DNA from: Adhaeribacter swui
GTDB lineage: Bacteria; Bacteroidota; Bacteroidia; Cytophagales; Hymenobacteraceae
DNA: 64,000 bases
Assembly (NCBI RefSeq): GCF_014217805.1
Contig: NZ_CP055156.1
Coordinates: 2,052,585-2,116,584 of the forward strand
Direction: 5' to 3'
A program made the translations under genes and the position numbers. Every line of letters starts with the position of its first letter. Within the stretch, counting starts at the first letter, position 1. Below, piece by piece: positions 12,721 through 36,172 of this stretch. Under the pieces are notes generated by a model. The model was not told the DNA's origin and ran no database searches. It saw only the letters and a list, made by a program, of their open reading frames with translations.

Positions 12721-13554
12721 TTACTTTACTTTCCGGATGTAAATATTGCCGTTAAAGTTTTTGAACATAAACTCCGGGCCGCCGCCATTTACCGAACCGT
12801 AGAGCCACTTATCGAGTTTCACGCTTTTGCCGCCACCTACTTTCATGAGTTCTTTATTGTCGGTATTTTTGTTAAAATTCATTTCAAAATCGCTGTAAAT
12901 TTCGCCGTTGTCGGCTTTCATTTTGGTCGAGAACTTTGCCGAAGCAGGTAAGGCTACGTCGATTTTGCCGTTCATGCTGCTGAAAGCCATGGGTACGTTA
13001 GGCGTGATCTTTTTTAAACTTACCTGCAAATCGCCGTTTAAAGTATTGGCTACTACCGAGCCGGACACATCGGTTAACCGGATATCGTCGTTTAAATTAC
13101 TGATTTCCAATTCGCCGTTTACGCCTTCCACAATAACTTTTCCGTTGTTCATGGCGCTTAGTTTCAGCGAAAAATCGCGGGGTACTTTTATGTCCAGGTC
13201 CATGTCGCGGTTAAATGCGTTGGCTCGTACTACCACGCGATTGTTGTCTTCGCTGGCTTCCAGGCCCAGGCTGTTGTTCGGAATCCGGCGCAAGCCATTC
13301 GCATCGGCATCGTTGTGGCGGCTCCGGCGGTCGTTGTCGTCATCGCCCCGGCCCGAGTACCTGATTATGACGTCTTTGCCCGAGTGGGCGCTTACCTTAA
13401 TGGAGCCATTCATTAAATCTACTTTCAAACTGCCTGGCTGACCGGGTTTGGTTAAATTTACGACTAAGCTTTTATTGTCGTTTTGAGCCGCGACAGGCTT
13501 GGGGGTTAGTATAATGGGTAAGGCAAAGGCTAGGATATAGAGTAAGCGTTTCAT
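12721..13554 (-). CDS. Exported DUF4097-type adhesin-like protein
   Basis: The 277-residue protein has a Sec signal peptide (residues 1-23, ending PVAAQ). The rest is a repeating beta-strand pattern of the DUF4097 type, with short repeats such as NLTKPGQPGSLKVDLMNGSIKVSAHSG and GELEISNLNDDIRLTDVSGSVVANTLNGDLQVSL that would build a right-handed beta-solenoid. Its ending (FKNFNGNIYIRKVK) matches the ending of the upstream paralogue at 14162-15025. It is the last gene of a probable sigma/anti-sigma unit, although a 600-bp repeat-rich gap separates it from the paralogue, so it may have its own promoter. The function is unknown. Confidence 0.8.
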   Translation of the reverse strand: MKRLLYILAFALPIILTPKPVAAQNDNKSLVVNLTKPGQPGSLKVDLMNGSIKVSAHSGKDVIIRYSGRGDDDNDRRSRHNDADANGLRRIPNNSLGLEASEDNNRVVVRANAFNRDMDLDIKVPRDFSLKLSAMNNGKVIVEGVNGELEISNLNDDIRLTDVSGSVVANTLNGDLQVSLKKITPNVPMAFSSMNGKIDVALPASAKFSTKMKADNGEIYSDFEMNFNKNTDNKELMKVGGGKSVKLDKWLYGSVNGGGPEFMFKNFNGNIYIRKVK

Positions 13555-18914: not shown

Positions 18915-18989
18915 GCTGGTGCGGGCTTGCAGCTCGTACCATAATCTTCATTGGTATTTTAGTGATACGAGCTGCAAGCTCGCACCAGC
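18915..18989. repeat. Palindromic repeat family R2, copy 1
   Basis: GCTGGTGCGGGCTTGCAGCT at the left is mirrored by AGCTGCAAGCTCGCACCAGC at the right, with a variable AT-rich middle. Related copies lie at 30915-30991 and 34892-34975. It is in the 266-bp gap between the GH1 start and the glycosyltransferase stop. Confidence 0.85.
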
Positions 18990-22264: not shown

Positions 22265-25200
22265 ATGAAGCGATTACTACTCTTATATGCTCTTGTTACC
22301 CTGGCATTGTCGCCGGTACTAGCGCAGCAACCGATTAAAGTCTCAGGAAAAATAGTAGATGCTGATTTACCCTTACCCGGAGTAACCGTGTTGGTAAAAG
22401 GTACTACCACCGGTACCGTTAGTAACGCAGAAGGAATGTATACTTTAGAATGCCCACCTACCAGCACCTTAGTGTTTTCCTTTATTGGGTACACTTCCCA
22501 GGAAATTGCCGTGGGTGGTAAAACCAGCATCAACGTAAGCCTGGCTACCGATGCTACCCAGTTAGGTGAAGTAGTAGTAACCGCTTTTGGTATTGAAAGA
22601 GAGAAAAAAGCTTTAGGCTATACCATACAAGAAGTGAGCGGTAGCAAACTGGCCGAAGTAAAAACATCTAACGTGGTAAATAATCTTTCGGGCCGAGTAG
22701 CTGGGGTGCAGGTAAATAGCAACGGCGGGCCAGGCAGCAGTTCAAATATCGTTATCCGGGGAATGGGTTCGGTAAGCCGAAATAACCAACCGCTAGTAGT
22801 AGTAGATGGCGTGCCTATTCAGCAAGCTAATACTTTAGGGGTTGACCCAGCAACCGGACAGCGAACCAGAAATGAAAGCCGCTTTGGGGGTGGTATTTCT
22901 GAAGTGAATCCGGAGAACATTGCCTCTATGTCTATCTTAAAAGGACCTAACGCAGCTGCGCTTTACGGTTCGCGGGCAGCTAATGGCGTTATATTAATTA
23001 CCACTAAAAACGGCGCGGGTACCAAAGGCATTGGGGTAGAAATTAGCTCCAGCGCTACTTTTGAACGGCCTTTAGTAAAGCCGAAATTTCAAAATACCTA
23101 TGGCGGAGGTAACGGTTACCGCACCTGGTTTAACAATGGTCGCAGCGGGGCAATTACTGACCCCCGGGAAATAGAGCAGTACCGGGCCGCTTATGGCCCT
23201 AATGCGCCGCTAAATGGCACCGAAGGTACTGACGAAAGCTGGGGGGCACCCATGGACGGCCGCTTGGTGCGTCAATGGTGGACCGGCGATGAGGTAGCCC
23301 CTTTAACGCCGCAACCCAATAACTGGGAAGAATACTGGGAAACCGGAAAAACGTTTTTTAATTCAGTTGCCCTGGTCGGAGGTAATGATAAAGGCAGCTT
23401 CCGCTTGTCAATAGGCCGTCTGGATCAAAAAGGAATTATGTTTAACAACGATTTTAAAAGAAACAATGTCAACCTGAATTCTTCTTATAATCTCACTTCT
23501 AAATTAAAGGTTACCACTAGTGCCGAATATATAAAATCAGGTTCTGATAACCGGTCTTTTCAGTCGAGCCAGGATTTTATCTGGGCGCACCGTTCGGTTT
23601 CCTGGGATCAGTTGAAGAACTGGCGCGATTACGTGGGTGTCCACAACCAGCTTCCGGGCGATAACCTGCCACCTAACTGGCAACATACCTTCTTTGTGAA
23701 TCCGTTTTACGAGCAGGAGTTTCTTACCTACGCGAATGATAAAGACAGGTTAAGAGGAAATATGTCTATATCGTATGACTTCAATGATAAATTTAGCTTA
23801 ATGGTAAGAAGCGGTACCGATTACTGGAGCGATACCCGCACCAATATTACCCGTTTCGAGCGCATTTCCGGGGGCAACTTCCGGGCTGGTCAGTTTAACG
23901 AAGAAGTGCTGCGCAGCCAGGAAACCAACCACGATGCGATGCTGACCTACAAGCAGGATTTCGGACCGGACTTCTCTTTTAATGGCCAGTTAGGCGGTAT
24001 TTACCGCAACAATTTCTACAAGCGTAACTTTACCCAAGTAGAGCAAATGGTAATCGATAAGCTCTATACACTCAACAACAACGCCAGCCCTAACACCAAT
24101 CAAAGCGAAACGCAGGAGTTTAATGTGCAAAGTCTTTTTGCCGCGGCGCAGTTTGGTTTCCGCAACTCGCTGTTCCTGGATGTAACCGGCCGTAACGATT
24201 GGTCTAGTACCTTACCCATTAACAAAAATTCTTTCTTTTACCCATCGGTATCGGTGAGTGCAGTAGTTACCGATTTATTAGGTATCAGCAGCAAAGCTTT
24301 GTCTTTTGCCAAAGTAAGAGCCAGCTGGGCCCAGGTAGGGAACGATGCTGATCCATACCAATTGTACCAGGTTTATGACGCTAAATCGCCCTGGAACGGC
24401 GCTATCCCGAGCTTCGGCGAAAGCACCGATATTAACAACGCTGGCCTGAAGCCCGAAATTACCACCGGCCAGGAAGTAGGCGCCGATATCCGGTTCTTAG
24501 GCGGTAAAATTGGCTTAGACGCTACGTATTACACCAAGAGCACCAAAGACCAGATTCTGGGGGTAGAAATATCCAAAGCTACCGGTTATAACCGCCGGTT
24601 CTTAAATGCCGGGGAAGTTACCAACAAAGGCGTGGAGTTAATGTTAACCGGTACCCCGGTACAATTAGGGAATGGTTTCCAGTGGGATATTTCGGTAAAC
24701 TATGCCCGCAACCGCAGCAAAGTAGTAGAGCTCGCTGAAGGTTTAACCACTTACACCCTGTATACCACCCGCGGACTTTCTACCGAAGCCCGGGTTGGTC
24801 AGCCTTACGGTACTTTCTACGGCACCGCGTTTTTACGCTCTCCCGATGGCCAAATTGTGTACGACAAAGAACGGGGTACGCCCTTAGTAGCACCGGGTCA
24901 GAAAGTACTAGGTAACATTCAACCCGACTGGATTGGTGGTCTTTCTAACTCGTTTTCTTACAAAGGTATTTCTTTAAGCGCTTTGATTGACGTAAAAAAA
25001 GGCGGCGATATTTTTGACGAAGGCACCGGTACTGCCCGCTGGACCGGCCAATACGCCGAAACCGCGGTAGGTCGTGAAGAAGGCGTAATAGGTAAAGGCG
25101 TGAAAAACGTTGGTACTGCTGATGCGCCGGTTTACGTGCCCAACGATGTAATCGCCGATGCCAAGTTATTCTATAGCTACAACAACCCGCGTACTTACCA

Positions 25201-25462
25201 CGAATCCGCGATTTTTGATGCCAGCTACGTGAAGTTACGCGAAGTAAGCTTAGGTTACCAACTGCCCACTTTCCTGACCAAAGCCATTCGTGCGCAATCT
25301 GCCCGTATCTCGTTTGTGGGTCGCAACATGGCTATCCTTTTCAAAAATACCCCGCACATCGATCCAGAAGTTGACTCTCAGGGTGGTAACGCGCAAGGCT
25401 TTACTTACGGCCAGTTACCTAACAGCCGCAGCTTCGGGATGAGCCTCGACGTGAAATTCTAA
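22265..25462 (+). CDS. SusC/RagA family TonB-dependent outer-membrane receptor
   Basis: The 1065-residue receptor has a signal peptide (residues 1-20, ending VLAQ), a carboxypeptidase-regulatory-like domain (about 25-100: VSGKIVDADLPLPGVTVLVKGTTTGTVSNAEGMYTL), a plug (about 105-230: GEVVVTAFGIEREKKALGYTIQEVSG, IVIRGMGSVSRNNQPLVVVDGVPI, NAAALYGSRAANGVILITTK), and a 22-strand barrel ending GMSLDVKF. This is the standard SusC layout and size. It imports oligomeric ligands with its SusD partner encoded 128 bp downstream. The genes that follow make amino acids or peptides a more likely ligand than glycans, which is inference. Confidence 0.95.
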   Translation: MKRLLLLYALVTLALSPVLAQQPIKVSGKIVDADLPLPGVTVLVKGTTTGTVSNAEGMYTLECPPTSTLVFSFIGYTSQEIAVGGKTSINVSLATDATQLGEVVVTAFGIEREKKALGYTIQEVSGSKLAEVKTSNVVNNLSGRVAGVQVNSNGGPGSSSNIVIRGMGSVSRNNQPLVVVDGVPIQQANTLGVDPATGQRTRNESRFGGGISEVNPENIASMSILKGPNAAALYGSRAANGVILITTKNGAGTKGIGVEISSSATFERPLVKPKFQNTYGGGNGYRTWFNNGRSGAITDPREIEQYRAAYGPNAPLNGTEGTDESWGAPMDGRLVRQWWTGDEVAPLTPQPNNWEEYWETGKTFFNSVALVGGNDKGSFRLSIGRLDQKGIMFNNDFKRNNVNLNSSYNLTSKLKVTTSAEYIKSGSDNRSFQSSQDFIWAHRSVSWDQLKNWRDYVGVHNQLPGDNLPPNWQHTFFVNPFYEQEFLTYANDKDRLRGNMSISYDFNDKFSLMVRSGTDYWSDTRTNITRFERISGGNFRAGQFNEEVLRSQETNHDAMLTYKQDFGPDFSFNGQLGGIYRNNFYKRNFTQVEQMVIDKLYTLNNNASPNTNQSETQEFNVQSLFAAAQFGFRNSLFLDVTGRNDWSSTLPINKNSFFYPSVSVSAVVTDLLGISSKALSFAKVRASWAQVGNDADPYQLYQVYDAKSPWNGAIPSFGESTDINNAGLKPEITTGQEVGADIRFLGGKIGLDATYYTKSTKDQILGVEISKATGYNRRFLNAGEVTNKGVELMLTGTPVQLGNGFQWDISVNYARNRSKVVELAEGLTTYTLYTTRGLSTEARVGQPYGTFYGTAFLRSPDGQIVYDKERGTPLVAPGQKVLGNIQPDWIGGLSNSFSYKGISLSALIDVKKGGDIFDEGTGTARWTGQYAETAVGREEGVIGKGVKNVGTADAPVYVPNDVIADAKLFYSYNNPRTYHESAIFDASYVKLREVSLGYQLPTFLTKAIRAQSARISFVGRNMAILFKNTPHIDPEVDSQGGNAQGFTYGQLPNSRSFGMSLDVKF

Positions 25463-25488
25463 TAGAGCTTTTATAAGGCCAGGAAAAG

Positions 25489-25521
25489 AAAAGTCCCCCT
25501 TGGGAGGGGGTAGGGGGAGGA
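25489..25521. repeat. C/G-rich mini-palindrome between susC and susD
   Basis: AGTCCCCCTTGGGAGGGGG folds into a hairpin and is followed by TAGGGGGAGGAT. It lies 26 nt after the susC stop and 70 nt before susD, and has no T-run. In this position it could stabilise the susC 3' end or attenuate read-through. Confidence 0.6.
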
Positions 25522-25590
25522 TAGAAACAGGGTACTTCCTGTTCTGTAAAAGTTAAGTCACTTATTTATTTCAAAAAAGATCTTATTGAT

Positions 25591-27060
25591 ATGAAAATAT
25601 ATTCCAAAATTAAAATAGCCACTTACGTGATAGCCGGAGCTTTTGTGGCGAGTGCCTGTACTAAAGACTTCGAATCCATGAACGTTAGTCCCAACAAACC
25701 CTCGGCGGTAAGTTCGGCGGTATTGCTGCCCAACGGCATTGAGTCGAGCGTGGACCGTTACTGGGGACACCGGGCCCGTTTTGAACGCATTAACCTGGAT
25801 GGCGGCATGTTGTGGGTGCAGTACCTGGCCCGTAATATTTACTCCGACGAAGGCGATAACTATAACATGAGCCCCGCTTATTACACCAATAACTGGAAGG
25901 GCTTTTACAACGACGCGCTGCAAAACTTTCAACGGATTATTATTCAGTCTGGCCCGGAAGGCACCGCACCTAATGCCAACTACGAAGGCGCTGCCTTGGT
26001 GATGCGTTCCTGGGTGTTTTCTTTACTAACCGATATTTACGGCGCTATTCCGTACACCGAAGCCCTGCAAGGTACCGCCGAAACACCCATTTACACGCCC
26101 AAATACGATTCGCAGGAAGCGGTATACGCCGGTTTACTGGAAGATTTAAAAATCGCCAACGAAAAGTTAACTATCGGTGGTCCGGCTATTTCGGGCGATA
26201 TTATGTTCGGGGGTAAAATTGACATGTGGAAAAAATTTGCCAATTCCCTGCGCTTAAAACTAGCCAACCGGCAAGCCGCTAAAAAACCAACCGAATCGCG
26301 GGCAATTATGGCCGAAATTTTAAGCGATCCGACTAAATACCCGATTTTTACTAGCAACACTGATTTTGCAGTACTTAAAAATGCTAACGGTTTACCCAGC
26401 AACAACGAATGGAACCAGGTAATGATTCAGGAAAGCCGCACAGACTGGAACCTGAGCAAAACCTTGGTAGATAAACTGCAAGCCCTGAACGATCCGCGCT
26501 TGGCGGTTTACGGCCAGCCGGTAAACAACCAATACATTGGCATCCCGAACGGTTTGCCCGATGCGATTGCGACCACGTACCTGGCTACCAGTGCTAAAAT
26601 TGGTACTTACTTTTTGCAAACAACTACCCCCAGCGTAATCATGAGTTACTCCGAGTTACTCTTTACCCTGGCCGAAGCTGCCGTTGATGGCGATATAGCC
26701 GGCGATGCCCAAATGTATTACGAACAAGCCATTGCGGCGTCGTTTGGTCAATACGGTTTAACCATGCCGGCTGATTACCTGACCACCGCCGGACCTGCTA
26801 CGAAAGAAAACATTCTGACTCAAAAGTGGATTGCCTTGTTTGGTCAGGGCATTGAGGCCTGGACCGAATACCGCCGCACCGGTTATCCGGTTCTGCCTAC
26901 CCCCGATACCCGGGCCATATTCCTGAACGATGGCGTATTACCTACCCGTTTGCAGTATCCATCTACCGAGTACTCGCTAAACAAATCGCAGTTAGATGCC
27001 GGCATTTCTTTAAACGGCGGTGCCGACGACAAAAAAACTAAAATGTGGTGGGCAGAATAG
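25591..27060 (+). CDS. SusD/RagB family surface lipoprotein
   Basis: The 489-residue protein has a lipoprotein signal (residues 1-23, ASACTK, with Cys23 as lipidation site). Its TPR-like helical core matches the SusD-like family, with NFQRIIIQSGPEG, GAALVMRSWVFSLLTDIYGAIPYTEALQG (about 118-160), the YDSQEAVYAGLLEDLKIANEKL segment, and SYSELLFTLAEAAVDGDIAGDAQMYYEQAI (about 350). It caps the SusC barrel at the cell surface and captures the ligand. The form with IPYTEALQG and TEYRRTGYPVL is the SusD_RagB variant often paired with amino-acid or peptide enzymes in my recollection. Confidence 0.95.
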   Translation: MKIYSKIKIATYVIAGAFVASACTKDFESMNVSPNKPSAVSSAVLLPNGIESSVDRYWGHRARFERINLDGGMLWVQYLARNIYSDEGDNYNMSPAYYTNNWKGFYNDALQNFQRIIIQSGPEGTAPNANYEGAALVMRSWVFSLLTDIYGAIPYTEALQGTAETPIYTPKYDSQEAVYAGLLEDLKIANEKLTIGGPAISGDIMFGGKIDMWKKFANSLRLKLANRQAAKKPTESRAIMAEILSDPTKYPIFTSNTDFAVLKNANGLPSNNEWNQVMIQESRTDWNLSKTLVDKLQALNDPRLAVYGQPVNNQYIGIPNGLPDAIATTYLATSAKIGTYFLQTTTPSVIMSYSELLFTLAEAAVDGDIAGDAQMYYEQAIAASFGQYGLTMPADYLTTAGPATKENILTQKWIALFGQGIEAWTEYRRTGYPVLPTPDTRAIFLNDGVLPTRLQYPSTEYSLNKSQLDAGISLNGGADDKKTKMWWAE

Positions 27061-27108
27061 TGCTCAGTGTGAAAAAATTTAAAAATCTAAATTCTAAGCG
27101 TATCAATC

Positions 27109-27549
27109 ATGAAAATAAAGCATCTAAATAAATTTTATACCCTGCTTTTTGCCTTAAGCTTTTTCTTAATGAGCTGCGAAAAAGAAGACGAACTGGTAGT
27201 AGACCGTGTGGTGTCTCCGGTTTTAGTTACCGTATCTGGTTCCAGCTTTTTGGCTACCGAGCCGGTAAAAGTAACCACGGGTATTTACGAACTGGATAAA
27301 AGCGGTATTCTGGATAACAAAGTAGGTATTGATACCATTCCGGTAACTGGTTTAGCTGTGAAGGTAATGCTGAATAACGCTGCCATCACCGAATTAACCA
27401 CCGACGCAGCGGGCCAGGTAAGTATGGAAAAAACCTGGGCCGAACTGGGATTGGCTGCTCCTACCCCGGGTAAATTTCTGGTATTGGAATGGTCGGGTTC
27501 GCACAAAGGACAAGCTTTTACGAAAACGAGCCGGGTAGTAGTAAAATAA
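27109..27549 (+). CDS. Small lipoprotein of the SusCD unit
   Basis: The 146-residue product carries a lipobox (FFLMSCEKEDE, Cys23). The remainder is beta-rich (VLVTVSGSSFLATEPVKVTTGIYELDKSGILDNK, GKFLVLEWSGSHKGQAFTKTSRVVVK) and could form one or two immunoglobulin-like sandwich domains. It follows susD by 48 bp and precedes the flavoenzyme by 21 bp on the same strand, so it is probably part of the same transcript. I do not recognise a family. A surface-exposed accessory binding role is a reasonable guess. Confidence 0.7.
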   Translation: MKIKHLNKFYTLLFALSFFLMSCEKEDELVVDRVVSPVLVTVSGSSFLATEPVKVTTGIYELDKSGILDNKVGIDTIPVTGLAVKVMLNNAAITELTTDAAGQVSMEKTWAELGLAAPTPGKFLVLEWSGSHKGQAFTKTSRVVVK

Positions 27550-27570
27550 ATTCCGAAACCGCTACCGCAT

Positions 27571-28695
27571 ATGCATAGAAGAGATTTTCTTTTAAAATCC
27601 GGCGCATTGGGGCTGGCCCTTGCCATGGGGGCTAGTTCCTGTGCACCAGGTAATAGTATTTACCGCGGTAGCGCAGCTAATGCGGGCTCCCGGCGCTTAC
27701 CCCGGGTTAAAATTTCCCTGGATCGGGTGGTAAAAGAAACCGTGGGTCTGCGGCCTTACCGTCTTTTGGGCCCACGGTTAGACGTAGAGATGCTCGGTAA
27801 TAAAACCATTGTGCACAATTACGGGCACGGCGGCAGTGGCTTCTCGCTGTCGTGGGGAACCGGCCAGATTGCCGCCAACAACGCTGCTGCTACTGGTAAA
27901 AAAGAAATTGCAGTAATTGGCTGCGGCATTGTGGGTTTAACAACTGCCCGTTTGCTGCAGGAAAGAGGAAAAACCGTAACCATTTACGCTAAGGAGCTGT
28001 GGCCCAAAATTACGTCCAGCATGGCTACCGGCACCTGGTCGCCGGCTCATTTGCTCTGCGAAGACGAACACATTACTCCGACGTTTAAAGCTACCTGGGA
28101 GCAAGCCTGCGCTTATTCGTTCCGGACGTACCAGAACCTGCTGGGTTTAGGCGATATCGTTACCTGGATCGATCATTTTATTATTGGTGGCCGCACGCAC
28201 AAAGAAGAGCCCAAGTTGCACATCAAAGGCCAATTGCCGGAACCAGTAGAATTAACCCGTCGGCAGCACCCGTTCCGGGCCCAGGAAGTGGTGAATCAAC
28301 CCAATATGGTTTTTAATATTCCCTCGTACCTGCGCCTGCTCACCGATGATTTTTTAAAATTCGGCGGCAAAATTCAGATACAGGAGTTTAAAACTTTGGA
28401 AGAAGTAGATGCGCTGTGGGAAGATTGCATCGTGAACTGTACCGGTTTAGGCGCCAAAACCTTATTTAACGACCAAAACTTAATGCCTATATCCGGCCAA
28501 TTGTCTTTCCTGATTCCGCAACCCGAAATTAATTACCGCTTAAGTACGCCTAATGGGTATATTATTCCTCGGAAAGATGGTTTGGTGCTGGGTGGTAATG
28601 CCATTCGCAATAACTGGAATACGACGCCTAATCCGGAACAAACAAAGATTGTAATTGCTGCATTGAATGATGCTATGATGGGAATGCGGAGCTAA
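27571..28695 (+). CDS. Exported D-amino-acid-oxidase-like FAD enzyme with permuted domain order
   Basis: The 374-residue protein has an RR-type export signal with a lipobox-like end (HRRDFLLKSG, Cys24). The DAO-type FAD loop GCGIVG lies at 117-122, NCTGLGA at 289-295, and YIIPRKDGLVLGGN at 330-343. The segment that normally ends a D-amino-acid oxidase, VGLRPYR followed by the signature VHNYGHGGSG...WG, is instead at residues 58-96, before the Rossmann fold. The C-terminus stops just after the GLVLGG strand, where that segment would be expected. This looks like a circular permutation. The expected reaction is oxidative deamination of a D-amino acid (or glycine/sarcosine-like amine) to an imine plus H2O2, outside the cytoplasm. 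Confidence 0.8.
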   Translation: MHRRDFLLKSGALGLALAMGASSCAPGNSIYRGSAANAGSRRLPRVKISLDRVVKETVGLRPYRLLGPRLDVEMLGNKTIVHNYGHGGSGFSLSWGTGQIAANNAAATGKKEIAVIGCGIVGLTTARLLQERGKTVTIYAKELWPKITSSMATGTWSPAHLLCEDEHITPTFKATWEQACAYSFRTYQNLLGLGDIVTWIDHFIIGGRTHKEEPKLHIKGQLPEPVELTRRQHPFRAQEVVNQPNMVFNIPSYLRLLTDDFLKFGGKIQIQEFKTLEEVDALWEDCIVNCTGLGAKTLFNDQNLMPISGQLSFLIPQPEINYRLSTPNGYIIPRKDGLVLGGNAIRNNWNTTPNPEQTKIVIAALNDAMMGMRS

Positions 28696-28769
28696 AGCTT
28701 TTTTGCCATAGCTGCGGCTGTTGTTTTCAATTCCTATGATGTGGATTTACTTCCGTGACTTGCTAATCG

Positions 28770-28990
28770 AGCAATAGATTCTCGTTCGCATAGCTACAGC
28801 AGTTGCTTTATTGTAAAGTGGAGTTGTTTCATAGCTGTGGTATTTGTTCTTTTTGTCTTGACACAAAAAGAACCAAAAAAGTCAAGACGCTAAAAACTCG
28901 CTGAACGCTCGAACAGTTTAGCGTCATTTTTTGCACTTGGCTAAAGTTATCTGTTGCATAGTAGGCTGGTAGAATTTTAAATTTTTTAAA
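28770..28990. repeat. Dispersed palindromic repeat, family R1, copy 3
   Basis: The first hairpin (TTCTTTTTGT/ACAAAAAGAA) is followed by the stem GACGCTAAA (28886-28894) and TTTAGCGTC (28917-28925), then TTGCACTTGGCT. Homology with copy 1 continues to about 29170, through CATTCAGGAGGAAACTATT and a C/G-rich mini-palindrome with ACCAAT(C)CC flank. The 685-bp gap 28696-29380 holds no gene. Confidence 0.8.
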
Positions 28991-29104
28991 ATTTTAAATT
29001 TTTGTCATTCAGGAGGAAACTATTTAGCTACGCAGCAAAGGATTTTCACTTAAGTAAAAGTCCTTTTTATGATACATGTAAACCTAGTCCATTGAAGCCG
29101 TTGT

Positions 29105-29235
29105 AGATAAAAGTCACCCTTCGGAGGGGATAGGGGAGGACCAATCCCCACGAATATTATTTAGTAAATGCTGCCTGGTAAATGTAAAAAAGCTCCCCGC
29201 CTTAGATAAGGAGGGGTTGGGGGTGGTTGATCCTC
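29105..29235. repeat. Two C/G-rich mini-palindromes
   Basis: AAGTCACCCTTCGGAGGGGATAGGGGAGGACCAA at 29107-29141 repeats the element at 4459. A second one, AGCTCCCCGCC with AAGGAGGGGTTGGGGGTGG, lies at about 29190-29226. Both are intergenic, before the class V enzyme gene. Confidence 0.6.
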
Positions 29236-29380
29236 TTCTCGTTAGATAACCAGTCGCAATTATCGCAAATTCTTTTTATCTTAATGCAAATAGCAGTTAA
29301 AATAACGTTTCAAGCCGCAGAAGTATAAAATAGATAAATTTTAACCGGTAAAACAAATCACCTATAACCCAATACTTATT

Positions 29381-30712
29381 ATGCCGAATAACTCCAATTC
29401 CAGAAGAAGCTTTGTTAAAAAAATAGGTGGTTTGGCTAGTTTGCTGACGGTTAGTCCGGCATTAGCGGCCTGGAAAAGCGAAACGGGTTTAGTGATTCCG
29501 GAAGTAGCCGCCGCCGAAGATGTAACGAAAGACGAAGATTACTGGGGTTTTATTCAGCAGGCCTACTCGGTTTCGCCGAACATTATCAACCTGAACAACG
29601 GGGGCGTAAGTCCGCAACCCATTGTGGTGCAGGATGCCTTGAACCAGTATAACCGCATGAGCAACGAGGCGCCCAGTTATTACATGTGGCGCACCTTAGA
29701 CGAAGCCCGCGAATCGGTGCGGATGAAATTAGCGGATTTAGGCGGTTGCTCGCCCGAAGAAATTGCCATTAACCGCAACGCCAGCGAAGCCTTGGAAACC
29801 ATTATTTTCGGCATAAACCTGCAGCGCGGCGACGAAGTGGTGCTAACCAAGCAAGATTACCCCAACGTGATTAACGCCTGGAAACAACGCGAAAAGCGCG
29901 ACGGCATTATTTTAAAATTTATCTCTCTGGATTTACCTATCGAGGATAATCAGCTTATTGTTTCTAAGTTTAAAGAAGCATTTACGCCCAAAACCAAAGC
30001 CGTCATGATTACCCACCTGATGAACTGGTCAGGGCAGATTTTACCGGCGGCCCTCATTAGCCGGGCGGCGAAAAAACATAATCCGGCTATTCAAGTGGTT
30101 ATTGATGGGGCGCATTCTTTTGCCCACATTAATTATAAAATTCCGGATTTGGAAGGCGATTACTACGGTACCAGTTTGCACAAATGGTTGTGTTCACCGT
30201 TTGGCACCGGCATGTTGTACGTAAAGCAAGCGAAAATTAAAGATTTGTGGCCGTTGCTGGCGCCCGAAGATCCGCAAAGCCCGGACATCCGCAAGTTCGA
30301 ACGGCTGGGTACCCGTTCTTTCCCGACCGAAATGGCCGTGGGGCACGCGATAAATTTTCATAATACCATTGGCAACGAACGTAAGCAAAAACGACTGCAT
30401 TTTTTAAAAAATTACTGGGTAGAGAAATGTATGAACGTGCCCGGCTTCTCTACGCAAACTTCCCTGAAACCAGAATTTTCGGGAGCGTTATGTACGTTTG
30501 CCTTAAAAGGCGTAGAGCCCAGCCAGGTAGCCAGCGAATTATTTAAACGGGCCCGCATTCATACGTCGGCTACGGTTTGGGAAAATATCAGCGGGGTGCG
30601 CATTACCCCGCACGTGTACACGCCTCTAAAAGATTTAGACCGGCTGGTAAATACCATTCACGCCATTGCCAAAGAAAACGTAACCGCCGCCAACCGCACC
30701 AGCACAAAATAA
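29381..30712 (+). CDS. Exported class V PLP-dependent aminotransferase-like enzyme
   Basis: The 443-residue enzyme has a twin-arginine-type signal (SRRSFVKKIGG, residues 8-18, hydrophobic to about 30). The class V core resembles isopenicillin-N epimerase and cysteine-desulfurase-like enzymes: NLNNGGVSPQP near 70, NRNASEALETIIFGINL at 131, the PLP-pairing aspartate D242 in VIDGAHSFAHI, and the Schiff-base lysine K268 in YYGTSLHKWLCSPFGTGMLYVK. Export of a folded PLP enzyme through Tat is consistent with cofactor loading in the cytoplasm. The substrate is probably an amino acid, with racemisation, transamination or lyase chemistry possible. It ends in a strong terminator. Confidence 0.85.
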   Translation: MPNNSNSRRSFVKKIGGLASLLTVSPALAAWKSETGLVIPEVAAAEDVTKDEDYWGFIQQAYSVSPNIINLNNGGVSPQPIVVQDALNQYNRMSNEAPSYYMWRTLDEARESVRMKLADLGGCSPEEIAINRNASEALETIIFGINLQRGDEVVLTKQDYPNVINAWKQREKRDGIILKFISLDLPIEDNQLIVSKFKEAFTPKTKAVMITHLMNWSGQILPAALISRAAKKHNPAIQVVIDGAHSFAHINYKIPDLEGDYYGTSLHKWLCSPFGTGMLYVKQAKIKDLWPLLAPEDPQSPDIRKFERLGTRSFPTEMAVGHAINFHNTIGNERKQKRLHFLKNYWVEKCMNVPGFSTQTSLKPEFSGALCTFALKGVEPSQVASELFKRARIHTSATVWENISGVRITPHVYTPLKDLDRLVNTIHAIAKENVTAANRTSTK

Positions 30713-30755
30713 GTTTTTGCAACGCAATTACCGCGGCGTAACTTCATGAAATTTA

Positions 30756-30816
30756 AAAACCGGCCTGCTTTTCTTCCTAACCAAAATGGTAACGAAGAAG
30801 AGCAGGCCGGTTTTTG
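30756..30816 (+). terminator. Terminator after the class V aminotransferase gene
   Basis: AAAACCGGCCTGCT (from 30756) pairs with AGCAGGCCGGTTTT (from 30801), with further pairing of TTTTCTTC and GAAGAAGA inside, and a T-run follows. Confidence 0.9.
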
Positions 30817-30914
30817 TTACTAAATAAAACAACCAGCAGCCGTGTTGAGAAAGGGGTTACTAATTCTAAATATCTCAAAGTCTCTTTCCAGACTGATTTT
30901 TTTAAATTCTTAAC

Positions 30915-30991
30915 GCTAGTGCGAGCTTGTAGCTCGTATCTTATTTTTTATCAAGATATTTCGCTGGTATGAGCTGCAAGCTCGCACCAGC
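30915..30991. repeat. Palindromic repeat family R2, copy 2
   Basis: GCTAGTGCGAGCTTGTAGCT at the left is mirrored by AGCTGCAAGCTCGCACCAGC at the right, around an AT-rich loop. One pair is lost (A for G in GCTAGT) and one is wobble-like compared with copies 1 and 3. Confidence 0.8.
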
Positions 30992-31202
30992 GAAATATCT
31001 TTTGACCGAATTATCTAAAAATTTGGCCCATCATTAAGGATGCCTGTAATTGTTTATTAGTCATCAGTCTCGCTGCGCTAAGGCTGGTGCCAGTTAAAAT
31101 GGTTCTCAGTTAAAAAAGTTATAATTACTTCTTCGCTGTCTATTATCTTTTGTCCTTTGTCTGTCGTCCATCGTCTGTGTACCATGGACTATCGACTAAC
31201 CT

Positions 31203-31673
31203 CTAATGCATCGCGGCGATTACCGAAATTTCTACGTTAGCGTTGCTGGGTAAACTGGATACCTGCACCGTTTCGCGGGCAGGTGGTTCTACGGTGAAGT
31301 ACTTGCCGTATACCTCATTCACTTTCGCGAACTGGCCCATGTCTTTTAAGTAAATAGTAGCTTTTACGACGTGCCGGAAATCCATGCCGGCTCCTTTTAA
31401 GATGGCCTGTAAATTTTTAAGCACCTGGTCGGTTTCGGCTTCAAAACTTTGCGAAGCTAACTGGCGGGTTTGCGGATTTACCCCCACTTGGCCGGCAACA
31501 AACAAAAAGCCATCTACCAAAACCCCCTGACTATAAGGCCCAACGGGTAAAGGAGCCTGATCGGTTTTAATTATCTTTTTTGCGGGTTGATTGGGGTTGC
31601 TGGAAGTCTGCCCGAAACTGGCCGTGGCTGATAGAAAAACAGCAGCACCGAATAGGAAAAAACACTTTTTCAT
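31203..31673 (-). CDS. Exported RidA (YjgF) family imine/enamine deaminase
   Basis: The 156-residue protein has a Sec signal peptide (residues 1-21, ending SFGQ) before a complete RidA fold. Landmarks are APLPVGPYSQGVLVDGFLFVAGQVGVNP and the conserved arginine in PPARETVQVSSLPSNANVEISVIAAMH, which binds the substrate carboxylate. RidA hydrolyses 2-imino and 2-enamino acids released by PLP enzymes and amino-acid oxidases. Most RidA proteins are cytoplasmic; here the signal places it with the exported oxidases and aminotransferases encoded on either side. It is the only minus-strand gene in this block and is convergent with the class V gene. Confidence 0.9.
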   Translation of the reverse strand: MKKCFFLFGAAVFLSATASFGQTSSNPNQPAKKIIKTDQAPLPVGPYSQGVLVDGFLFVAGQVGVNPQTRQLASQSFEAETDQVLKNLQAILKGAGMDFRHVVKATIYLKDMGQFAKVNEVYGKYFTVEPPARETVQVSSLPSNANVEISVIAAMH

Positions 31674-31810
31674 GGATAAATCAGGTTAAAACGCAACAGA
31701 TGTATGAGAAAAGTAAAAGAATCAAGCATTTTTTTAGCTTTTAAACCAGTTTGTACAATTTAAATTAGATAACATGCCGGCGAAAATCAAAGGCTTTATT
31801 AAAAACAGTT

Positions 31811-31876
31811 TAAATTTTAAGGGTGCCAAGTAAAAAATAAATGTTTTTTGTTGAAACAAGTGTAAATTTTAAGGGT
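31811..31876 (+). repeat. Direct repeat upstream of the amine oxidase gene
   Basis: TAAATTTTAAGGGT occurs at about 31811-31824 and again at about 31863-31876, 52 bp apart, in the divergent region between ridA-like and amine oxidase genes. It could bind a regulator, but nothing else supports it. Confidence 0.35.
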
Positions 31877-31967
31877 ATCTTGAAATTTATAATTGTTTTT
31901 TCGGCAATATACTATAAAATTTTTACCTTTAGATATGGAGTTTTAGTAAAATTTAAATAGAATTAAT

Positions 31968-33557
31968 TTGAAACATCTATCCCGAAGAGCTTTTTTGAGT
32001 AAGAGCGCGTTACTCGCCGGAAGTGCTTACCCGGCCATGATGGCATTAGGTTTATTGCCCGGTGCTCCGGCCCACGCTTTTAATTTATCCGGTGATGGTA
32101 AAGGCAAACACGTCCTGATTTTGGGCGGTGGTTTAGCTGGCATGACGGCCGCTTACGAGTTAAATAAATTAGGTTACCGCACTACCATTCTGGAGGCCCG
32201 TACCCGGGCCGGTGGTCGGGTGTTCAGTGTCCGGAAAGGATCTACGAACCAGGAAGGGGATGGTCCGGTGCAAACCGCTAATTTCGATAACGGTCTGTAT
32301 TATAATGCCGGTCCTTCGCGGATTCCGCACCACCACCAGCTTACCATGCATTATTGCAAAGAGTTAGGCGTGCCACTGGAAGTATATAATAACGTAAACG
32401 AAGGAACGTATTATTTCAGCGAAGGAAAGGGACCTTTATCGAACAAAAAAGTACGTGCCCGCGAAATTCACAACGACATGCGCGGCTACATGACCGAGCT
32501 GCTCGCTAAAGCCCTGGACCAGGATAAGCTGGATTTAGCTTTAAATAAAGAAGACGCCGCCAAAGTACTGGAATACCTCCGCGCCGAAGGTGGCCTCGAT
32601 ATTGATAAACTATACAAAGCTTCGGCCCGCCGAGGCTACCTGGAAGCGCCGGGTGCCGGCGAAAAATCGGGAAAAGTAGGTGATCCGCACAAGCTGGCCG
32701 ATATTATTCAGTCGGGTTTACTGGACCCGGACTTTTATAACGTAGCCGAATACACCTACGAACTGCAAATGACTATGTTCCAGGCCGTAGGTGGCATGGA
32801 TAATATCGCCAAAGCCCTGGAGAAAAAAGTAGCAGGTTCACTGAAATTGGGAGCCGAGGTAAAAACCGTGCAAAATATACCTGCCGGCGTAAAGGTTATT
32901 TATAAAGATAAACAAGGCGAACACGAGTTAACCGGCGATATCTGTATTTGTACTTTGCCGTTACCAGTGCTCAGCAACATCGACCATAACTTTGCTTCGG
33001 ATGTGAGCCGCGCCATTGATTTTGTGCCTTATATCCAAACCGGTAAAATAGGCTTGCAGTTTAAACGCCGCTTCTGGGAAGAAGACGAGCAGATTTACGG
33101 CGGCATTACCCACACCAACAACGAGCTTACCCAGATTTTTTATCCGTCTTACGACTACTTAAGCAAGAAAGGCATTCTGTTGGGGTATTATAACTTTAAC
33201 GAGAAAGCTAAAATGGTCGGCGATATGTCCATGGCCGATCGGGAAAAGCTGGCCCTGGAAAAAGGCAGCCTTATTCATCCGCAGTATAAGCAAGAATTTG
33301 AAACCTCGTTTTCGGTAAGCTGGCACAAAACCAAATACAACATGGGCGGCTGGGCCGTGTACAACAGCGACGCCCGCAAAACCTTATATCCGGCGTTGCT
33401 CAAACCCGACCAAAACGTGTACTTCGCCGGCGAACACACCACCTACTTAACCGCCTGGATGGCCGGTGCTTTTGAATCGGCCCGCAGCGTGGTAGCTTCT
33501 ATTCACTCCCGGTTAGCGGAGCAACGGGTACAATATCCGGTTACTTCCAAAGGCTAA
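31968..33557 (+). CDS. Exported flavin amine oxidase, L-amino-acid-oxidase-like
   Basis: The 529-residue enzyme begins at a TTG codon with a twin-arginine signal (LSRRAFLSKSALLAG). The FAD motif ILGGGLAGMTAAYELNKLGYRTTILEARTRAGGRV spans 51-84, and the C-terminal flavin motif is VYFAGEHTTYLTAWMAGAFESA. The block NAGPSRIPHHH (113-123) contains Arg118 at the place where L-amino-acid oxidases hold the substrate carboxylate (as in GPMR of snake-venom enzymes), so an amino acid is more likely than a simple amine. Products would be a 2-imino acid and H2O2. It is 65 bp before the aminotransferase gene, so the two are probably co-transcribed. Confidence 0.85.
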   Translation: MKHLSRRAFLSKSALLAGSAYPAMMALGLLPGAPAHAFNLSGDGKGKHVLILGGGLAGMTAAYELNKLGYRTTILEARTRAGGRVFSVRKGSTNQEGDGPVQTANFDNGLYYNAGPSRIPHHHQLTMHYCKELGVPLEVYNNVNEGTYYFSEGKGPLSNKKVRAREIHNDMRGYMTELLAKALDQDKLDLALNKEDAAKVLEYLRAEGGLDIDKLYKASARRGYLEAPGAGEKSGKVGDPHKLADIIQSGLLDPDFYNVAEYTYELQMTMFQAVGGMDNIAKALEKKVAGSLKLGAEVKTVQNIPAGVKVIYKDKQGEHELTGDICICTLPLPVLSNIDHNFASDVSRAIDFVPYIQTGKIGLQFKRRFWEEDEQIYGGITHTNNELTQIFYPSYDYLSKKGILLGYYNFNEKAKMVGDMSMADREKLALEKGSLIHPQYKQEFETSFSVSWHKTKYNMGGWAVYNSDARKTLYPALLKPDQNVYFAGEHTTYLTAWMAGAFESARSVVASIHSRLAEQRVQYPVTSKG

Positions 33558-33621
33558 AATCATCTCTCACGCAAAAATAAACTTTCACCTTTAATTTACA
33601 CTTATACGCACTTTTACTCTC

Positions 33622-34788
33622 ATGGAAAAATCAATGAACAGACGTAACTGGTTGAAGTCCAGTGCTCTTTTAGCCGGAGGTTTCACCTTCTTTTCCGGCT
33701 CGTTAAACCAGCTGGTAGCTAAGCCGGCGGCCCGTACCCTCGAGAAGAAAATTACAGAAGAAAGTATTATTCTGGGTGCTCCGGCCGAACTCAAAGCCCG
33801 CCTGAGCTCCAACGAAAATCCTTTTGGTCCTTCCGAGAAGGCGAAAAAAGCCGCCATGGATGCCCTGAATACCAGTTACCAATACCCCATGAAATACACC
33901 CGGGAGCTGGCTCAGAAAATTGCGGATTACGAAGGTGTAAAATTAGAAAACATTTTAATGGATGCCGGTTCCGGACCTTTGTTGTTAGCGGCCGCCATGT
34001 ACTACAGTAAAAAAAGCGGTTCTAATATTGTTTCCGGCGATCCCACCTACGCCAGCTTACCCCGCGACGCCGAAGATTTTAATACTACCTGGAACAAAGT
34101 ACCTTTAACTGCCGACTATAAGTTAGACCTGGATGCCATGGAGAAGCGGGTAGATGCCAGCACTTCGCTCATGTACATCTGTAACCCCAACAACCCGACC
34201 GGTACCGTGGTAGACTCGGCAAAGCTCCGGGCTTTTTGCGGTCGCGTTTCGCAAAAAGTACCCGTATTTATCGACGAGGCCTACATTGATTACTTGCCCG
34301 ATCCGCAAGCTGCCTCAATGATGGATTGCGTGAAAAAAGGCCAGAACGTTATTATCGCCCGTACTTTCTCCAAACTTTACGGTTTTGCCGGTCTGCGGGT
34401 AGGTTACATCATTGCCCAACCTGATGTTATTAAGGAATTAAGTAAATATGGCGCCGGCGGTATGAGCATTTCGGCCCCATCGGTGCAGGCGGCTTTAGTG
34501 GCTTACCAAGATAAAGCTTTCTTGCAGGATGCTTTAAAGAAAACGTTGGCTTCTAAGAACTTTTTGTACGATGTGCTGAAGAAAGAAGGCTACGAATACA
34601 TTCCGTCGTCGAGCAACTTTGTGATGTTCCCGCTGAAAATGGAAGGCGATAAATTTGTTGCCGAACTCATGAAACGTGGCGTGAGCGTGCGTAACTGGAA
34701 ATTTAGTAACCAGGAATGGTGCCGCATCAGCATTGGCCGCATGGACGAAATGCAAGCTTTCGCCGATGCCTTCCGCCAGATATCGTAG
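33622..34788 (+). CDS. Exported HisC-like class I/II aminotransferase
   Basis: The 388-residue enzyme has a twin-arginine signal (MNRRNWLKSSALLAGG, residues 5-20). The fold-type I core shows SSNENPFGPS (62-71), YICNPNNPTG (185-194), FIDEAYIDY (217-224) and the PLP lysine K251 in TFSKLYGFAGLRVGY, and ends WCRISIGRMDEM. This is the histidinol-phosphate aminotransferase family, but an exported copy next to an L-amino-acid-oxidase-like gene is unlikely to serve histidine synthesis. It probably acts on aromatic or similar amino acids. A second ATG five codons in (M5) could be the real start. Confidence 0.9.
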   Translation: MEKSMNRRNWLKSSALLAGGFTFFSGSLNQLVAKPAARTLEKKITEESIILGAPAELKARLSSNENPFGPSEKAKKAAMDALNTSYQYPMKYTRELAQKIADYEGVKLENILMDAGSGPLLLAAAMYYSKKSGSNIVSGDPTYASLPRDAEDFNTTWNKVPLTADYKLDLDAMEKRVDASTSLMYICNPNNPTGTVVDSAKLRAFCGRVSQKVPVFIDEAYIDYLPDPQAASMMDCVKKGQNVIIARTFSKLYGFAGLRVGYIIAQPDVIKELSKYGAGGMSISAPSVQAALVAYQDKAFLQDALKKTLASKNFLYDVLKKEGYEYIPSSSNFVMFPLKMEGDKFVAELMKRGVSVRNWKFSNQEWCRISIGRMDEMQAFADAFRQIS

Positions 34789-34891: not shown

Positions 34892-34975
34892 GCTGGTGCG
34901 AGCTTGTAGCTCGTACCTTATTTCTAGGAAAAATCCTGAAGTGATTATAGGTACGAGCTACAAGCTCGCACCAGC
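34892..34975. repeat. Palindromic repeat family R2, copy 3
   Basis: GCTGGTGCGAGCTTGTAGCT (34892-34911) is mirrored exactly by AGCTACAAGCTCGCACCAGC (34956-34975). Compared with copy 1, the pair GCAGCT/AGCTGC is changed to GTAGCT/AGCTAC on both arms. No gene lies in the 388-bp gap. Confidence 0.9.
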
Positions 34976-35176: not shown

Positions 35177-36172
35177 ATGCGTAAAATATTCTTATCGTTT
35201 GTACTAATTGGTAATATGTACGTGGCGCACGCGCAGAGCAATGGCACCTCGCGGCCTTTAACCATGGCCGAATACCAGAAAGCCAAAACTTTTGCCGTAA
35301 AAGATCTGGATAACGATACCTACGTTAAAATTGAAAATACTTACATTCTGGACCGGTACGAAGGTCGTAAACCCTACTTTATTACCGGCGACGATGGCTT
35401 GAAAAAACGCATGGATTTGTACCGTTTGGTAAGCAAAGAAGGTATGCAGGAACTCGGTACCATGATTTTCTACACCAACGAAAAAGGCAAATTATATAAA
35501 GCACTACTACCTAACTTTACCACTGACGGTAAGGTGTGGGAAAACTACTTTGAAGACATTCACGCGATTGATAAAGAAGAAAAAAACTTTGTGTTGAAGT
35601 TATCTTACGTGCTGTCGAAAGAGTTGGCGTTTCAGCAATACAAAGCTTTAAACCAGGGCAAAGATTTAAAAGCCGAATCGGCTACCTACGGCAATGACAT
35701 TTGCTTTCCCGGCGACCAACTGGTGGCCATGGCCGATGGCAAGCAAAAATTACTGAAAGAAGTAAAAGCCGGCGACCAAGTATTAACCATTGATCCGGCT
35801 ACGAAAAAATCAACCACGGTACTGGTAAAAGAACTGGTTTCGCACGAAGCGAAAAACTACGCTATCACCCGTTTACTGGTAGCGAGCGCTTCGGAAAAAA
35901 CGAGTAAACTGGGTAAAGAAGTTAACTTAAGCAGCAAAGTGCTGGAAGCAACCCCGAACCACCCGATGCAAACCCGCGACGGCAAACGCAAAATGGGCGA
36001 AATAAACCTGGGCGAAGAAGTATTGTGCTACAACAGCAAAACCGGTAAATACGAACCATTCACGGTATTAAACAAGGCCGAATACGCGGGTGGCGTGCAA
36101 AAAGTGTATAACATTGAAGCCGCCGCCGGCACTACCTTTATGATGAACGACGTAATGGTGCTGCAAAAGTAG
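35177..36172 (+). CDS. Exported protein with C-terminal Hint (hedgehog/intein) domain
   Basis: The 331-residue protein has a signal peptide (1-20, ending AHAQ) and an N-terminal region (22-170) not recognised. The Hint domain starts at C176 in ICFPGDQLVAMADGKQKLLKEVKAGDQVLTIDPATKK, with block B at EATPNHPMQTRDGKRKMGEINLGEEVLCYN (H262), and ends in VYNIEAAAGTTFMMNDVMVLQK without the His-Asn that allows splicing. It should therefore form an N-terminal thioester and could cleave itself or attach its N-part to a nucleophile, as Hedgehog and BIL domains do. It follows the amino-acid enzymes by 388 bp and ends in a terminator-like hairpin. The function is unknown. Confidence 0.85.
   Translation: MRKIFLSFVLIGNMYVAHAQSNGTSRPLTMAEYQKAKTFAVKDLDNDTYVKIENTYILDRYEGRKPYFITGDDGLKKRMDLYRLVSKEGMQELGTMIFYTNEKGKLYKALLPNFTTDGKVWENYFEDIHAIDKEEKNFVLKLSYVLSKELAFQQYKALNQGKDLKAESATYGNDICFPGDQLVAMADGKQKLLKEVKAGDQVLTIDPATKKSTTVLVKELVSHEAKNYAITRLLVASASEKTSKLGKEVNLSSKVLEATPNHPMQTRDGKRKMGEINLGEEVLCYNSKTGKYEPFTVLNKAEYAGGVQKVYNIEAAAGTTFMMNDVMVLQK

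Follow-up and report, generated by a model that had tools for sequence, protein, structure and literature searches.

A circularly permuted D-amino-acid oxidase homolog in a predicted cell-envelope amino-acid oxidation locus of Adhaeribacter swui

We describe a bacterial flavoprotein that, judged from its sequence, is a circularly permuted homolog of D-amino-acid oxidase. Its gene lies in a 64,000-nucleotide stretch of the Adhaeribacter swui genome (contig NZ_CP055156.1, positions 2,052,585 to 2,116,584; hereafter, the window), and the protein is termed DAO below. The gene belongs to a block, carried as a conserved cluster by certain soil- and water-dwelling bacteria, that also encodes a SusC-SusD pair, a small lipoprotein, a class V pyridoxal phosphate (PLP) enzyme, RidA, an L-amino-acid oxidase (LAAO), and a HisC-like aminotransferase. 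An initial annotation had placed these eight genes at 22265-34788 and proposed amino-acid oxidation outside the cytoplasm coupled to SusCD import. All eight were recovered at those coordinates, so the observation itself was confirmed, and the reading given to it was partly supported. That annotation rightly took the first flavoenzyme for a D-amino-acid-oxidase-like protein, as both of its halves are homologous to that family, and it missed the circular permutation.

The permutation was apparent in the alignments with solved relatives. A search of PDB sequences aligned DAO with human D-aspartate oxidase (DASPO; 6rkf) in two swapped pieces, residues 109-363 with 11-265 and residues 54-102 with 280-331 (i-Evalues of 2.9e-13 and 2.5e-6, respectively), and a profile built from 45 DAO relatives sharpened these values to 7.9e-21 and 1.9e-9. 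About the first 70 residues past the signal of DAO match the C-terminal end of D-amino-acid oxidases (DAAO) and DASPO (GLRP...HNYGHGG). When the N-terminal 111 residues were compared alone with the Pfam DAO model, they aligned with positions 291-352, and the remainder alone aligned with 2-295. The native sequence scored 109.5 bits against this model in two stretches, and the sequence re-ordered to the ordinary arrangement scored 116 bits in one stretch covering 2-352 of 353 positions. A natural control was provided by L142, a DAAO of canonical arrangement encoded in a different genome of the same taxonomic order; its flavin adenine dinucleotide (FAD) motif lies at residue 8 and HNYGHGG at residue 285 of 313. 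Against native DAO, this protein aligned as two swapped segments scoring 21.9 and 78.0 bits (total, 102.1); against re-ordered DAO, it aligned as one segment of 105.3 bits (total, 106.0). Both halves are thus homologous to DAAO/DASPO, and the canonical order, with the FAD motif first, was not found. The glycines of the FAD motif, Arg61 of GLRP, and most of HNYGHGG were invariant or nearly so in the 45 rows. D-amino-acid oxidation by the permuted protein is likely.

Other accounts of the sequence were rejected. A broken or truncated protein was considered, since the C-terminus seems short, yet the missing end sits at the N-terminus and no second HxYGHG is present. A fusion or partial duplication was ruled out likewise, as a second HxYGHG copy was absent from all 45 aligned relatives (the C-terminal ends of the 12 rows inspected look alike). 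Glycine oxidase ThiO was not supported either (63 bits vs. a cut-off of 250.8).

An AlphaFold2 model of DAO, computed from the 45-row alignment (pLDDT 88.2, pTM 0.85), places helix 87-106, a short loop, and strand 112-116 immediately before the FAD motif; we read the modeled helix as the old C-terminal helix. In a Foldseek comparison with the PDB, ranks 1 to 33 were all DAAO or DASPO entries (4qfc being counted on an incomplete title), with sequential TMq values of just 0.51-0.60, as would be expected when the swapped part cannot align in sequence order. The model therefore gives a confident prediction of the DAAO fold.

To gauge the breadth of the family, a collection of 84,980 species was scanned, and 226 DAO relatives were confirmed. 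Only the 80 best matches were retained; as they were selected by likeness to the permuted profile, they indicate breadth only and give no ratio of permuted to ordinary forms. HxYGHG preceded the FAD motif in all 80, the twin arginine was present in 79 (the exception, L108, being an over-extended open reading frame (ORF)), and 74 had a cysteine among their first 60 residues. Among the Bacteroidota, they came from Adhaeribacter, Rhodocytophaga, Runella, Dyadobacter, Larkinella, Emticicia, Chryseolinea, several Cyclobacteriaceae, and one Saprospiraceae metagenome-assembled genome, and outside this phylum from Pelagicoccus (Verrucomicrobiota) and Dyella/Frateuria (Gammaproteobacteria). The verrucomicrobial and gammaproteobacterial rows formed one group of five in the tree (branch length 0.78, support 100/99). 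Given the shared breakpoints, the simplest reading of these sequences is that the permutation arose once. Of 395 genomes sampled evenly across the class, four gave a match at E ≤ 1e-20; those in G000 and G046 were full-length and permuted and those in G183 and G284 were partial, the G183 protein being canonical in order. A second partial match, L141, yielded no ORF under the filter applied. The DAO match of locus L161 (genome G487) begins at query residue 40, and its branch in the tree is very long. A metagenome-assembled genome labeled Thalassovita (L065) carries a tandem pair of permuted DAO genes, after which comes a SusCD-lipoprotein triad in convergent orientation; it has these SusCD neighbors despite its label, and it clusters with Flexithrix in the tree.

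The second line of evidence concerns RidA. The window protein exceeded the curated family cut-off, and an arginine was read in its PPARETVQV segment, which we take by position to be the catalytic arginine. A study of RidA, in its available text, describes the catalytic arginine as important, RidA as hydrolyzing LAAO-derived imines, and Rid genes as clustering with FAD amine oxidases (PMC4433059). Across the 80 DAO loci, a RidA gene and the permuted DAO gene were no more than 350 bp apart in 28 (28 of 51 when the 29 Dyadobacter loci are set aside). In 20 of these, RidA was upstream on the opposite strand, in seven, all Larkinella, it was downstream on the same strand and of another RidA subfamily, and in one it was upstream on the same strand; three Adhaeribacter loci had it 1.6-8.4 kb from DAO. 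One of the 20 opposite-strand cases is weak (E 1e-5), the match being to a Pelagicoccus protein of 437 aa that contains RidA (L135). Two Pelagicoccus loci, L135 and L137, encode such proteins of 437-441 aa with a secretion-type N-terminus, divergently from the permuted DAO; that of L137 was detected in one neighborhood scan only. By a crude signal rule, 26 of the 31 RidA proteins of DAO loci passed, including 23 of the 28 within 350 bp. The five that failed (L068, L100, L110, L112, and L115) are all among the adjacent ones; the misses in L100, L110, L112, and L115 look like a wrong choice of start, and L068 fell under the hydropathy threshold. That the two genes recur together in different layouts supports the idea that the exported oxidase is linked to imine hydrolysis, and the view of the initial annotation that an exported RidA fits the oxidase chemistry is supported by this recurrence, for which there are also precedents in print.

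Export was judged by eye and by a crude hydropathy rule with a threshold of 1.8. Twin-arginine N-termini were read in DAO (MHRRDFLLK..., with Cys24), the class V enzyme (NSRRSFVKK), LAAO (LSRRAFLSK, from a TTG start), and the HisC-like enzyme (MNRRNWLK), and a Sec-type N-terminus (MKKCFFLFGAAVFLSATASFGQ) in RidA. These four are thus predicted to be exported by the twin-arginine translocation (Tat) pathway and RidA by the Sec pathway, as the initial annotation had it for five exported enzymes, four of twin-arginine type. Four of the five passed the crude rule, the class V enzyme falling narrowly under it (1.79 vs. 1.8). The Pfam TAT_signal model gave only a weak match to DAO (E 0.039). A TatC gene was found in the genome. 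The same genome holds five RidA-family genes, and the closest paralog of the window RidA (L001, 128 aa) has no N-terminal extension. Another exported-looking RidA-family protein of this genome (L004, C3:5465392-5465700) carries a twin-arginine signal, MNTTPRRSILKK.

The positions and family evidence of all features are listed in Table 1. The near full-length homology of the LAAO to the solved enzyme 2jae, presumably from Rhodococcus opacus, makes oxidation of L-amino acids a fair inference for this protein. The class V enzyme aligned with PvdN (5i90) over residues 6-424 of 443, the signal region included, and its assignment as PvdN was rejected on the curated model (NF051467, 146.9 bits vs. 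a cut-off of 650). The HisC-like enzyme was likewise rejected as PtaA (NF051461, 212.8 bits vs. 500) and as HisC (TIGR01141, 258.5 bits vs. 276.55), and its score on PRK09105, 271 bits, was also below the cut-off. The small lipoprotein had no family match in the profile-library scans of the window proteins.

Table 1. Features of the amino-acid oxidation locus; coordinates are positions in the window.
Feature	Coordinates	Strand	Evidence
SusC/RagA-family TonB-dependent outer-membrane transporter	22265..25462	+	TIGR04056, 663.5 bits vs. cut-off 368
SusD-like lipoprotein partner (PF12771, SusD-like_2)	25591..27060	+	E 5e-98
Small lipoprotein, function unassigned; regular third member of the SusCD triad	27109..27549	+	In 20 of 20 SusD loci fetched
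Circularly permuted D-amino-acid/D-aspartate oxidase homolog (DAO), Tat-type, possibly lipid-anchored	27571..28695	+	Pfam DAO; PDB-sequence alignments
DAO, predicted Tat signal to Cys24 (possible lipobox)	27571..27642	+	Sequence reading; R3, R4, and C24 invariant in 9 rows
DAO residues 54-108, C-terminal end of an ordinary DAO (VGLRPYR...HNYGHGGSGFSLSWG), N-terminal here	27730..27894	+	
DAO residues 109-374, N-terminal ~265 residues of an ordinary DAO, from the GCGIVGL FAD motif	27895..28692	+	
Tat-type class V PLP enzyme, PvdN/SufS-like	29381..30712	+	Aminotran_5, E 2.5e-37
RidA with Sec-type signal peptide	31203..31673	-	TIGR00004, 162.3 bits vs. cut-off 106.25; Ribonuc_L-PSP/RidA
Tat-type L-amino-acid oxidase (LAAO)	31968..33557	+	Amino_oxidase; 2jae, E 3.9e-102 over residues 39-519
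Tat-type HisC-like aminotransferase	33622..34788	+	Aminotran_1_2; 3ly1, E 3.4e-47
Secreted protein, unassigned N-terminal domain and C-terminal Hint (hedgehog/intein) domain	35177..36172	+	PF01079, 35.2 bits

Two gaps inside the block, 28696-29380 and 30713-31202, hold no listed ORF, and these long gaps, together with RidA on the minus strand, argue against a single operon for the whole block. A REP-like inverted repeat (GCGAGCTTGTAGCTCGTA facing its own complement) occurs in three copies, at 18921-18983, 30921-30985, and 34898-34969; the element gave six matches at up to two mismatches, vs. none in 100 shuffles. Elsewhere in the window, an 863-aa protein at 57070-59661 carries a cytochrome c assembly domain.

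We examined the conservation of the neighborhood within and beyond the genus. The order SusC-SusD-lipoprotein-DAO-class V-RidA (minus strand)-LAAO-HisC-Hint is kept in six of seven other genomes of the genus (G002-G007), the Hint gene of G007 reading short. In the seventh, G001, RidA, LAAO, HisC, and Hint lie near a contig end, the contig stopping 1.9 kb past RidA, and no DAO match was found genome-wide. In G002 (L048, 9478-16298), about 7 kb separates class V from RidA, and a further partial match to class V lies at 12929-13093. Across the order, an LAAO at E ≤ 1e-100 was found in 51 of 390 genomes, from which 20 loci were picked, mostly one per genus; HisC was in the stretch in 18 of these (adjacent in 15), Hint in 17, SusD in four (one a 43% relative), and permuted DAO with class V in one (L161). 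Close SusD relatives were found in 80 of the 390 genomes, and among the 20 SusD loci picked from them (L181 overlaps L158), the lipoprotein was present in 20, HisC, together with SusC-SusD-lipoprotein, in 18, Hint in six (one partial), and LAAO in two. As 18 of these loci were chosen because LAAO was absent or elsewhere, the last count cannot be used to gauge linkage. In eight genomes (G000, G006, G018, G040, G473, G495, G523, and G748), a close SusD is found within 10 kb of LAAO, and the two lie apart in many others, e.g., G484, G625, G637, G669, G730, and G737; with this qualification, the gene linkage to SusCD is upheld. The class V enzyme, found in 122 of the 390 genomes, was rejected as a core member; it is mostly unlinked elsewhere in the order, despite lying 157-184 bp from DAO in L105, L120, and L129 and its presence in L161. 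In the A. swui genome, HisC has a single paralog at E ≤ 1e-20, with 27% identity, and Hint has none at E ≤ 1e-5, suggesting that these neighbors do not come from large gene families, at least in this genome. The gene set is conserved, and outside the genus it is broken into recurring pieces. Gene-order conservation, the check named in the initial annotation, accordingly holds within the genus and for recurring pairs beyond it, where class V is mostly unlinked.

The block should also reach further than the eight genes first delimited, to the Hint gene, which was near LAAO in 17 of the 20 LAAO loci fetched. In this protein, Cys176, Thr259, His262, and Pro263 were invariant in 28 rows; we take Cys176 to be Cys1 and Thr259/His262 to be the block-B TxxH motif (ATxNHP), so that both expected elements are present. 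A protein-splicing intein ends in a C-terminal His-Asn pair. This pair was absent in the 32 of 33 Hint rows that reach the C-terminus (the rows include the truncated L054 and count one locus twice, as L158 and L181); splicing is therefore not expected, and the protein was rejected as a protein-splicing intein. The fold model had a pLDDT of 81.4 and a pTM of only 0.48. Foldseek matched it to inteins and hedgehog (1at0), the matches listed (50 of 60) all being inteins or other Hint-type domains. For the N-terminal domain, the profile-library scans gave no family beyond Hint-type models, and no other fold was among the Foldseek matches listed. Hedgehog releases its N-terminal domain via a thioester, and by analogy the Hint protein could release its own N-terminal domain in this way. 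Its place beside LAAO is a recurring, unexplained association across the order.

Taken together, these data suggest that the locus is probably a Cytophagales cell-envelope module in which amino acids, or amino groups carried on peptides, are oxidatively deaminated. This reading draws on the observed gene content, export-type signals, gene order, permutation, and predicted fold, with the catalytic steps inferred from the enzyme families. The SusCD pair would import peptide or amino-compound substrates to the periplasm. LAAO and the permuted DAO, the latter perhaps anchored by lipid, would both leave the cytoplasm by Tat already folded around FAD and would oxidize the L- and D-stereoisomers with O2 to imino acids and H2O2. 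The exported RidA would hydrolyze the imines to 2-oxo acids and NH3, so shielding the neighboring PLP enzymes, and the two PLP enzymes with predicted Tat signals may act on the products or substrates by transamination or in some other way. The recurrent pairing of RidA with permuted DAO supports the imine-scavenging step of this scheme. A bolder extension, which we regard as improbable, is that a permutation of single origin gave rise to a lipid-anchored envelope DAO in at least three phyla, in a module with exported RidA, LAAO, and a Hedgehog-like self-cleaving protein, where amines of the module may resolve the Hint thioester and the N-terminal domain may thereby be joined to them.

Several observations weigh against a deamination module. 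The whole set was seen together in this genus only, and full-length permuted DAO in just the two genomes noted above of the 395 evenly sampled. The 29 Dyadobacter loci have DAO and no RidA match in the stretch fetched, and L161, which holds LAAO, HisC, Hint, class V, and permuted DAO, has no SusC, SusD, or RidA match in 20 kb. Where LAAO is also listed, class V is near it only in G000, G006, and G487. Both LAAO and HisC of G006 (L053, 6402-9217) show frame breaks, through decay or sequencing error. Finally, the PLP enzymes resemble PvdN and PtaA, which suggests peptide tailoring as an alternative.

This last point underlies the strongest rival explanation, which we nonetheless consider unlikely, namely that the exported PLP enzymes and oxidases modify a peptide, siderophore-like or a signal, in the periplasm and that SusCD takes up the product. 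The long alignment with PvdN and the score on PtaA favor it, both precedents being Tat-exported enzymes that act on peptides. However, the scores are under the curated cut-offs, no peptide synthetase was among the genes annotated (no window search was aimed at one), and the closeness of LAAO to 2jae suits free amino acids. It is improbable, and more so than tailoring, that the permuted protein has kept its fold for a role other than amino-acid oxidation, such as binding or another flavin reaction. The modest sequential TMq values would agree with such a role, as would the replacement by Ser, in L013 and L014, of Tyr330, the presumed counterpart of human DAAO Tyr228; but a sequential alignment necessarily misses the swapped part, the FAD glycines, Arg61, and most of HNYGHGG are kept, and a neighboring RidA in 28 of 80 loci fits an imine product. 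Amino-acid oxidases make H2O2, and the exported oxidases could serve as a weapon or defense that turns amino acids into H2O2 against competitors. The absence of a catalase from the block, put forward initially, was confirmed, as no catalase family match was found there, and the two catalases of the genome show no export signal by eye. RidA, the two PLP enzymes, and SusCD would be unneeded for this purpose, yet they recur as neighbors, and we regard it as very unlikely. A chance neighborhood of unrelated exported proteins, for which the ORF-free gaps and the opposite strand of RidA might speak, can be practically dismissed in view of the genus-wide conservation and the recurring pairs in other families: the random proximity that would have counted against the initial annotation fails for most pairs, being unlikely for HisC-LAAO-Hint, SusCD-lipoprotein-HisC, and DAO-RidA, and may apply to class V, which is mostly unlinked.

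The deamination module can be set beside several known systems. With hedgehog/intein-like Hint domains, the window protein shares Cys1, ATxNHP, and the Hint fold, and it differs in lacking the His-Asn pair, in its unassigned N-terminal domain, and in its place near LAAO. The window LAAO, similar to 2jae over nearly its full length, differs from it in having a Tat-type signal and recurring HisC/Hint neighbors. PvdN and PtaA of Pseudomonas are, in the available text of the report, Tat-exported periplasmic PLP enzymes that act on the glutamyl residue of pyoverdine (PMC6206403); the two window enzymes carry predicted Tat-type signals and match the models of these proteins, with scores under the family cut-offs. 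In the lao-cccA-ridA operon of Gluconacetobacter diazotrophicus, an LAAO with a Tat signal is clustered with RidA, as here, and a periplasmic LAAO and RidA were proposed; that operon has a cytochrome c gene, and the available part of the report mentions no SusCD, PLP enzymes, or DAO (PMC5053998). In Chlamydomonas, periplasmic LAO1 with LAO2/RIDA is described as scavenging nitrogen outside the cytoplasm, again an LAAO and a RidA acting there, but in a eukaryote and on L-amino acids, and neither an importer nor PLP enzymes are mentioned in the accessible text (PMC10805672). The RidA pairing with exported oxidases makes extracytoplasmic imine protection testable in bacteria.

DAAO is a textbook flavoenzyme and a target for drugs and biosensors, and its family is known mainly from inside cells. 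Compared with human DASPO (6rkf) and human DAAO (2du8), the window DAO aligns in both halves and keeps the FAD motif, the GLRP arginine, and HNYGHGG; unlike them, it has its halves swapped and a Tat-type signal with Cys24 at the new N-terminus, the solved relatives in the alignments all being in the ordinary order. A search for a Tat-exported DAAO turned up nothing useful, and no description of a circularly permuted DAAO was found in the open-license literature, a scope that leaves out most subscription journals, so that absence is unproven. Extracytoplasmic LAAO with RidA and Tat-exported PLP enzymes are thus already known, and the permuted DAO arrangement is the part of which we found no description. 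A natural permuted family that retains the motifs of DAAO would reveal which connection of the fold is dispensable, would offer a scaffold with new free termini, and would add an exported bacterial class to the family.

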